From positions 806,001 to 870,000 of the forward strand of contig NZ_CP081958.1 in assembly GCF_019823105.1 (NCBI RefSeq): 64,000 nt of DNA. The letters run 5' to 3'. Position 1 is the stretch's first letter; each line of letters begins with the position of its first letter. The stretch comes from Halobaculum magnesiiphilum (GTDB lineage Archaea > Halobacteriota > Halobacteria > Halobacteriales > Haloferacaceae). The position numbers and the translations under genes are program-made. A model generated the notes under the pieces. That model made no database searches, was not told where the DNA came from, and saw nothing but the letters and a program-made list of their open reading frames with translations. Positions 33,062 through 42,943 of this stretch are shown here, piece after piece.

Positions 33062-33135
33062 GGGCTTGTAGCTCAGTCAGGGAGAGCGACGGACTCTTAA
33101 TCCGTCGGTCGGGGGTTCAACTCCCTCCAAGCCCG
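33062..33135 (+). tRNA. tRNA-Lys (anticodon CTT)
   Basis: A 74-base cloverleaf. The acceptor stem pairs GGGCTTG with CAAGCCC, the D stem is GCTC/GAGC, and the anticodon stem ACGGA/TCCGT encloses loop CTCTTAA with anticodon CTT. The T arm is GGGGG-TTCAACT-CCCTC with one G-T pair. The discriminator base is G; CCA is not encoded. A TTTT tract follows directly (33137-33140) and a small hairpin (GAACGGT...ACCGTTC) further on. The 3' part from the T arm is duplicated 160 bases downstream. Confidence 0.95.
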
Positions 33136-33158
33136 CTTTTCGAGGCGCACTGTGACGA
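33114..33158 (+). repeat. att-like direct repeat, copy 1 (tRNA-Lys 3' end plus flank)
   Basis: Forty-five bases from the T arm of tRNA-Lys through its acceptor end and 23 bases beyond. The same sequence recurs at 33274-33319 with one extra G before the T tract. Duplicated tRNA 3' ends are the usual footprint of integrase-driven insertion. Confidence 0.85.
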
Positions 33159-33273
33159 GAACGGTGAGCGGAGCGAACCGTTCGAGGAACCGCGCCGACT
33201 ACCGGTCGTCCGAGGGAGTTGAAGCAGGGAGGTCGCGCGCAGGCGAGCGGAGTGAGCGTGCACGTCCGACAGT
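33159..33273. other. Spacer between tRNA-Lys repeats, no gene
   Basis: About 115 bases with a short hairpin near the left end and, at 33211-33222, an inverted 12-base copy of the T-arm sequence (GAGGGAGTTGAA). No open frame is convincing. If the repeats mark an element, its content has been lost. Confidence 0.5.
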
Positions 33274-33319
33274 GGTTCAACTCCCTCCAAGCCCGCGTTT
33301 TCGAGGCGCACTGTGACGA
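33274..33319 (+). repeat. att-like direct repeat, copy 2 (tRNA-Lys 3' fragment)
   Basis: Forty-six bases matching copy 1 except for one inserted G. It ends exactly where the stop codon of the PPOX gene (33320-33322 on the minus strand) begins, so the repeat edge and the gene end coincide. Confidence 0.85.
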
Positions 33320-33763
33320 TCAAAACGCCGTCAACGTCGCGCTCGCAACGTCGACTCTGAGGAGTCCCTGGCTCGATACCTCGCCGTCGCCCTCATTGTC
33401 GCCCCCCTCTGCACCCGACTCGTCCGCTTCGGTGTCGGCGTGCATCGCGTACGTCTCCGCGAGGCGGCGCTCGACCCACGCGGCGCGCTCGGGGTCGTCC
33501 ACCCGCGCCGCGGTCCCGAGGAGGGTCGCCTGCCAGTCGACGGTGCCGGCGCGGTCGGCCGACTCGATCGACAGCGCGACCCGGGGGTTTCGGTCGATGT
33601 TCTCCAGCTTCCGCCCGCCGGTGAACAGCCACACCGCGTCCGCGTCGTCGTCGAGGACGAACCACACGGGCGCGACGTGCGGACGGTCGTCGACGGCGGT
33701 CGCGAGGTGGGCCGACAGCGCGAGTCCGTCGAGGTGGTCCCGGAGCGCAGAGAGGGAATCCAT
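33320..33763 (-). CDS. Pyridoxamine 5'-phosphate oxidase-like (PPOX, flavin-binding split barrel) protein
   Basis: A 147-residue PPOX-fold protein with the usual pattern: HLATAVDDRPHVAPVWFVLDDD for strands 1-3, FTGGRKLENIDRNPRVALSIE for the flavin-contacting region and GTVDWQATLLGTAARVDDPE. Such small proteins bind FMN or F420 and reduce diverse substrates. An acidic, Gly-rich stretch interrupts the C-terminal part. The start is ATG 33763. Its last codon abuts the second tRNA-derived repeat, so the C-terminus may have been altered by the same event. Confidence 0.83.
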   Translation of the reverse strand: MDSLSALRDHLDGLALSAHLATAVDDRPHVAPVWFVLDDDADAVWLFTGGRKLENIDRNPRVALSIESADRAGTVDWQATLLGTAARVDDPERAAWVERRLAETYAMHADTEADESGAEGGDNEGDGEVSSQGLLRVDVASATLTAF

Positions 33764-33816
33764 ACCCGACGGACGCGTCGCTGGCGGGTATCGGTTGCTC
33801 CCGTTCCAGCGGGGCG

Positions 33817-34260
33817 CTACTCGTCGGGGTCGGCCGCCAGCGCCGCCGAGCGGAGCGACTCGCCGCGCTCGGTTTCGACCGTCAGGTCCGGAACGGGCGT
33901 CGGCCTCCGGTCCTCGTCGAGCGCGACGAAGACGAACGTGGCCTCGGTGGTCAACTCGCGTTCGCCCGTCTCCGGCGTCTCGCGGAACGCTCGGAGGCGG
34001 ACGCGGATCGAGGTTCGCCCGGTCTCGTACGCGTACGACTCGATGACGCAGGTGTCGCCGCGGGGGATCGGGCGGTCGAAGTCGAGCCGGTCGATGCTGG
34101 CGGTGACACAGGGGTGGCCCGCCAGGCGCATCGCCGACATCGCGCCGACCTCGTCCATCCACTTCGCGACGTTGCCGCCGTGGGCGGTGTCGTAGTTGTT
34201 CGTGTCGTCCGGCTGGACGCGCTCGCGGTTCTCGATGTACGTCTCGATGAGGGTGACCAT
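33817..34260 (-). CDS. Acyl-CoA thioesterase, hotdog fold
   Basis: A 147-residue hotdog protein of the acyl-CoA hydrolase (YciA/BFIT-like) family: NYDTAHGGNVAKWMDEVGAM carries the catalytic aspartate-type helix region, then RLDFDRPIPRGDTCVIESYAYETGRTSIRV and ATFVFVALDEDRRP. It would hydrolyse acyl-CoA to free acid and CoA. CGGTTTCTTC about 28 bases before ATG 34260 is a plausible TATA box. The preferred chain length is unknown. Confidence 0.88.
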   Translation of the reverse strand: MVTLIETYIENRERVQPDDTNNYDTAHGGNVAKWMDEVGAMSAMRLAGHPCVTASIDRLDFDRPIPRGDTCVIESYAYETGRTSIRVRLRAFRETPETGERELTTEATFVFVALDEDRRPTPVPDLTVETERGESLRSAALAADPDE

Positions 34261-42787: not shown

Positions 42788-42790
42788 GTG

Positions 42791-42815
42791 CGAGGTCGAA
42801 CGAAGTGAGACCTCG
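42791..42815 (+). terminator. Hairpin downstream of tRNA-Leu
   Basis: A perfect seven-base stem (CGAGGTC with GACCTCG, 11-base loop) starts three bases after the tRNA 3' end, followed by weaker repeats of the same loop motif. It may help processing or termination; no T tract follows, so the role is uncertain. Confidence 0.35.
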
Positions 42816-42943
42816 ACGGGCGAACGGGGAACGTAGTGACCCGTGAGCTGTGAGGAGCGAAGCGACGAACGAGCAGGCACGGATACGAACCCTGGGAGTC
42901 GTCGACCTCCGAACGCAAGACGGCCGCATGACGCTGCCGAAAC

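Follow-up and report, generated by a model that had tools for sequence, protein, structure and literature searches.

A repeat-and-hairpin unit behind tRNA-Lys(CTT) of Halobaculum magnesiiphilum and its possible place in a family of tRNA-tail arrays in Halobacteria

Introduction

In archaea and bacteria, mobile DNA lands mainly in the regions 3' of tRNA genes, where partial tRNAs are routinely taken for prophage scars. Partial tRNAs have been described as integration remnants (PMC9897764, PMC3119063). In Haloquadratum walsbyi, DNA between short direct repeats is lost, partial tRNA duplications included, a behaviour similar to that of the arrays reported here (PMC3119063). The partial tRNAs of that species are prophage-linked, whereas the present arrays are self-similar and class-wide. 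Integrons are another system of reference. The part of the IntegronFinder survey considered here, which included 47 haloarchaea, reports none in archaea (PMC7923331), and archaeal integrons were found in nine phyla of metagenome-assembled genomes, with Halobacteria unmentioned (PMC9668308).

The window is a stretch of 64,000 nucleotides from the chromosome of H. magnesiiphilum (contig NZ_CP081958.1, positions 806,001 to 870,000). The 3' end of its tRNA-Lys(CTT) gene is repeated a short distance downstream, a layout first described as an att-like pair. With about even confidence, we regard the locus as one unit of a class-wide repeat-and-hairpin family, for which the name tRNA-tail array is used.

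Organization of the tRNA-Lys(CTT) locus

The gene spans 33062-33136 according to ARAGORN and 33062-33135 according to Infernal. The elements that follow it are listed in Table 1.

Table 1. Features of the tRNA-Lys(CTT) locus and of a related remnant in the window
Feature	Position	Strand	Source
tRNA-Lys(CTT) gene, array parent	33062..33135	+	Infernal; ARAGORN
T block of the gene, G52-G53 and T loop to discriminator base, GGTTCAACTCCCTCCAAGCCCG	33114..33135	+	identity profile, 63 copies
H1 spacer: U-rich trailer, then hairpin	33136..33211	+	fold
rcT, inverted copy of T loop and T stem, GAGGGAGTTGAA	33212..33223	-	repeat search
Core of the GCAGGGAGGTCG...CGTCCGACAGTGG family; forms hairpin H2 with rcT and T copy	33224..33275	+	
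Second T block, same sequence as T block of the gene	33274..33295	+	
Repeated H1 start, one base inserted (33297), ending abruptly at the stop codon of the neighbour	33296..33319	+	
PNPOx-family gene, longest ORF, outside the array	33320..34162	-	
Degenerate remnant 3' of tRNA-Leu(TAG)	42788..42920	+	

The direct repeat was correctly identified in the preliminary description: the 22 last bases of the tRNA gene and 23 bases of its flank (33114-33158) recur at 33274-33319 with one base added (33297). The two copies are offset by 160 bp and separated by 115 nt (33159-33273). The second one stops at 33319, adjoining the stop codon (33320-33322, minus strand) of the gene then named PPOX, which is of the PNPOx family and whose real start is probably further inside the longest ORF. 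An inverted T-arm copy reported in the spacer is also real, with 12 of 12 bases identical, but it lies at 33212-33223, one base to the right of the position given before (33211-33222).

The H1 hairpin pairs GAACGGT (33159-33165) with ACCGTTC (33177-33183), nested within a second stem of GGCGC (33144-33148) and GCGCC (33192-33196). Its fold is alone not significant (z -0.94), and comparable hairpins are present at other tRNAs. H2 (33209-33297) has z -3.04 when folded as RNA and z -1.99 as DNA, and its core belongs to a family found in 24 genera. The remnant behind tRNA-Leu(TAG) contains H1-like hairpins, a decayed rcT (about 42878-42890) and the truncated core start CCCTGGGAGTCG.

A common plan behind many tRNA genes

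Copies of the own 3' end of each tRNA, defined by at least 17 of 21 identical bases, were counted around the 43 chromosomal tRNAs of the window's genome (G000) and 42 tRNAs of G017, a 2.1-Mb genome from another family. In G000 such copies occur downstream of 18 tRNAs and upstream of none, while 22 tRNAs of G017 have 44 copies, in tandem runs of up to five. Chance is excluded because the ends of foreign tRNAs match only 3.5% of downstream flanks (71 of 2019 pairings, mostly between near-identical isoacceptors), against own ends at 18 of 43 tRNAs. Within the genus, the tRNA-Lys(TTT), Ser, Leu, Val, Arg and Met genes share the array plan, each with its own sequences.

The borders of the copied segment are sharp. 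Across 63 copies, identity to the tRNA stays at the background of about 0.25 through position 51, rises to 0.86-0.94 at G52-G53, is 0.9-1.0 from the T loop along the acceptor strand through the discriminator base, and falls to about 0.5 beyond it. A copy thus opens at G52-G53|T54, the border of the T loop, and closes with the discriminator base. The inverted copy covers T54 to about C62 only.

The order within a unit is the T loop-to-3' end of the host tRNA, H1, the inverted T loop, the core and again the T loop-to-3' end. H1 is a variable hairpin 5' of the inverted copy. The core, situated between the inverted and the direct copy, is 26-68 nt long (median 43), precedes almost every direct copy and pairs with it via the inverted T loop to form H2. 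It is purine-rich on the tRNA strand in 139 of 147 distinct cases. Several families of cores are found, each folding with characteristic internal loops. Many cores end in a GNA triloop, GA-xy-GNA-x'y'-GA, where xy and x'y' are complementary in 51 of 73 cases (GC/GC, AC/GT, GT/AC). The sequence d(GCGNAGC) is a DNA mini-hairpin of unusual stability, and is taken here as a lead only.

Two loci (L101, L106) feature a tandem pair of tRNA-Asp(GTC) genes, about 125 bp apart, 5' of a unit. Arrays and entire tRNA genes may undergo duplication together.

Shared cores and covariation of the hairpin

A search with one 43-nt core, allowing up to three mismatches, found it in 60 genomes of 24 genera, with no match in the control. 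It lies 3' of eight tRNA types: Arg-CCT (17 loci), Lys-CTT (5), Leu-TAG (2), Arg-TCT, Arg-TCG, Ser-TGA, Val-CAC and Val-TAC. Its orientation relative to the tRNA is the same at all 29 loci having an ARAGORN tRNA. In G017, identical cores follow different tRNAs while the T arms are local to each tRNA. Behind tRNA-Arg(CCT) the core is nearly invariant across families and H1 is unalignable; this conservation points to selection rather than to free mobility. Units with a foreign tRNA 3' end are rare, which also counts against mobility since site-specific jumping would be expected to produce them.

The proposed H2 pairs hold in 95.7% of the cells of an alignment of 34 distinct copies of this core. 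Both sides are altered in 22 cells, against 7.2 expected from shuffles; none of 500 shuffles reaches 22, and slid structures used as control give at most 4 cells. Covariation at columns 3-59, 4-58 and 6-56 is not built in, because the search pattern left those columns free.

The repeat had alternatively been ascribed to a tiny element or a tandem duplication. This came nearer to what is observed, as units are gained and lost in a modular way and tandem copies exist. A simple local duplication is nevertheless insufficient, because of the inverted T-loop copy, the covarying hairpin and the presence of one core at different tRNA genes. In its full form this explanation holds that the tRNA 3' end was simply duplicated in tandem on the spot and that replication template switching gave the inverted repeats as a by-product. 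It could account for the identical tandem units of some arrays (Gly-GCC and Ser-TGA of G017), and hairpin-templated correction could keep the arms matched. It has to accommodate the same cores in one orientation at different tRNAs of 24 genera and a distribution nearly restricted to Halobacteria (see below), and is considered quite improbable.

The same data bear on a role at the RNA level, which is the main rival to the recombining-module reading developed below. On this view the precursor tRNA would end in a structured 3' trailer made of H1 and H2, and selection would act on the RNA, either for termination or 3' processing or because it serves as a small RNA. The fixed orientation of arrays relative to the tRNA, the RNA fold of H2, the covariation of its arms, the near-invariant core behind tRNA-Arg(CCT) and the arrest of the copies exactly at the mature 3' end are all in its favour. 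Yet the T-stem mismatches are nearly equally G.T (39) and A.C (28), with no clear bias to pairing in the tRNA sense; half of the tRNAs have no unit and the unit number ranges from 0 to 5; a scan of the window region gave no terminator-like site; and Rfam models had no match outside the tRNA. We consider a trailer function rather unlikely.

Distribution

The signature GGATTYGAA-N(28-58)-TTCRAATCC was searched across genomes; it captures one T-loop type, so that a zero count does not mean absence. It is present in 365 of 391 Halobacteria genomes and in 82 of 86 genera, at up to 22 places per genome, while the reversed pattern used as control gave none. In the same phylum outside Halobacteria it occurs in 2 of 204 genomes. 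A genome with a signature count of zero (G381) was matched in the core search. A tRNA gene is present at 29 of 30 sampled signature loci. At L102 the tRNA does not match the hairpin of the locus, and L098 lies on the distal side of an integrated element.

Carriage by viruses was considered and rejected: 101 pattern matches were found in viral contigs, and the G+C-rich ones fetched are unlike haloarchaeal units. Matches in the plasmid and phage collections searched were limited to the tRNA itself. Four G+C-rich viral or prophage contigs (L142, L157, L170 and L173) have long near-perfect palindromes with T-loop outer ends, GGATTTGAAC...GTTCAAATCC, followed by ATG(A/C)C; their cores are unrelated to those of haloarchaeal units.

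Turnover of units between relatives

Comparison of the tRNA-Lys(CTT) locus in related haloarchaea had been proposed as a check of att function. Among 11 genomes of the genus, the locus has no unit in G002, G009 and G010, a decayed or partial unit in G007 and G008, one unit in the window's genome, G001, G003, G004 and G005, and two units in G006, the sister of the window's genome (support 100/100). The number of units thus varies from 0 to 2, and a full element or any larger insert is never found.

Indels of at least 15 nt were counted between G000 and G006 within 400 nt on each side of 39 orthologous tRNA loci. They are present downstream of 24 loci and upstream of one. The difference amounts to exactly one unit at Lys-CTT (149 nt, the window locus), at Met/Ile-CAT (195 nt) and at Leu-GAG, where a 79-nt unit of G006 has no counterpart in the window's genome. 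At Gly-TCC the window's genome has a fused H1. The points of gain or loss lie in repeated sequence, namely the T block, rcT or H1. For Lys-CTT, Tyr and Leu-TAA, the extra unit is joined within the repeated inverted T loop; in the filled and empty pairs of Leu-GAG and Met/Ile-CAT the T block alone is repeated. The second spacer of G006 is carried by G001 and G007 as well, which suggests an old two-unit array behind tRNA-Lys(CTT). With two units, or the spacer of the second, present in relatives, the array behind the window's tRNA-Lys(CTT) has probably shrunk to a single unit. Many of the unit differences between genomes may be losses.

At Ala-CGC, Ala-GGC, Arg-CCG, Phe, iMet, Leu-TAG, Thr-TGT and Trp, the downstream flanks of G000 and G006 are unalignable over 450 nt while the upstream flanks are near-identical. 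Larger strain-specific insertions are a possible cause.

Integrases and integrated elements

The preliminary description saw no integrase gene, and indeed PF00589 is absent from the window, the nearest match being about 46 kb from tRNA-Lys(CTT). One of its readings, that an element inserted by a tyrosine integrase was excised leaving both att sites, fared less well. The T loop-to-3' end block is a standard integration target (review PMC8371274), and one integrase element does adjoin a tRNA-Val array in G170 (see below). The proposal is opposed by the lack of any element at tRNA-Lys(CTT) in the 11 genomes and by the identical architecture found 3' of about half of all tRNA genes, and it leaves the inverted T loop unexplained. 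A search for partners in the window's own genome gave no further tRNA 3' end copy beside integrases in the stretches fetched. An att pair is very improbable here.

The G170 element is 10.4 kb long (L308:8109-18607, corresponding to G170 C1:44108-54606) and lies between tRNA-Val(CAC) and its array. It codes for a tyrosine integrase, an Eco57I-type methylase and a 619-aa protein without Pfam match, and is a candidate defence island. A copy of the T block serves as its right att, with H1 and H2 behind it. A relative of its integrase (83%) is found near tRNA-Val(CAC) of Halorarius halobius ZY10. Integrases do use the same T loop-to-3' end block as arrays. The idea that units are the attachment arms of integrase elements was discarded: the G170 and Halorarius halobius elements are related and neither has an inverted T loop or rcT-core arm at its right att.

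Arrays might instead act as decoys or landing sites, maintained because integrative elements that insert there spare the tRNA gene. This would fit the correspondence between their T blocks and the usual att block, and the one integrase element found next to an array; but class III elements regenerate the tRNA anyway, and in the checked stretches of the window's genome no integrase is paired with an array. Such a role appears improbable.

Several additional, probably virus-borne tRNA genes are clustered at 722-724 kb of contig C1 of the window's genome (L077); integrase genes lie at C1:705-707 kb, about 16 kb from them.

A putative recombining module

The combination of copies specific to their own tRNA, shared cores, a covarying hairpin, differences of exactly one unit and a near class-restricted distribution is the basis for reading the units as a so far undescribed hairpin module that recombines and is tied to the 3' ends of tRNAs, a proposal drawn from sequence comparison to which we give about as much belief as doubt. 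Units would be non-autonomous DNA modules that multiply, shrink and swap cores by recombination. Exchange would occur at the T block and rcT, either by homologous recombination or via a tyrosine recombinase, and the folded hairpin might be the recognised feature or might keep the two arms matched.

A stronger version, built on the analogy with attC, is that arrays could be a new kind of gene-less, mobile or self-propagating hairpin DNA that uses the tRNA T loop as a folded recombination site, evolved separately from integrons and spread class-wide. The module would carry the 3' end of its host tRNA, so that the tRNA gene would stay intact. We consider this version unlikely.

If the array reading is true, most short-range tRNA repeats of haloarchaea would be misread as prophage scars. 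Arrays provide a class-wide, countable and fast-changing system to test arm complementarity, core exchange and unit turnover, with Haloferax volcanii, for instance, as genetic model.

Comparison with known systems

Open full-text literature on tRNA repeats, att sites, trailers and integrons in archaea and haloarchaea does not describe these arrays. They are provisionally considered new, closed-access work being outside the search.

Arrays share with class III tRNA attL/attR sites a direct repeat that begins at the T loop and reaches the 3' end of the tRNA. Unlike those sites, they have no intervening element, occur in many tandem copies and behind about half of the tRNAs, and possess a structured core and an inverted T loop. 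An integrase element between the copies, as expected of class III sites, was found neither in the 11 genomes of the genus nor through the integrases of the window's own genome.

The sites of integron attC/CALIN arrays have the consensus R boxes RYYYAAC and GTTRRRY. Like them, tRNA-tail arrays display hairpins with conserved ends and variable sequence, in single orientation and at several sites; each is a fold-back site whose structure is kept while its sequence varies. The unit ends GGNNTYGAA and GGTTCRANNCC are those of the tRNA T loop instead of R boxes. As regards IntI and gene cassettes, no genes are present in any array unit read, and the window's genome has matches to the integrase model PF00589.

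MITEs and REP-type palindromic repeats resemble array units in being short, non-coding, dispersed and hairpin-forming. The terminal inverted repeats of arrays, however, are not identical in all copies as in MITEs: their terminal arms match each local tRNA, and their site is fixed at tRNA 3' ends. As for a target-site duplication, none was seen, the filled and empty pairs at Leu-GAG and Met/Ile-CAT showing a repeat of the T block only.
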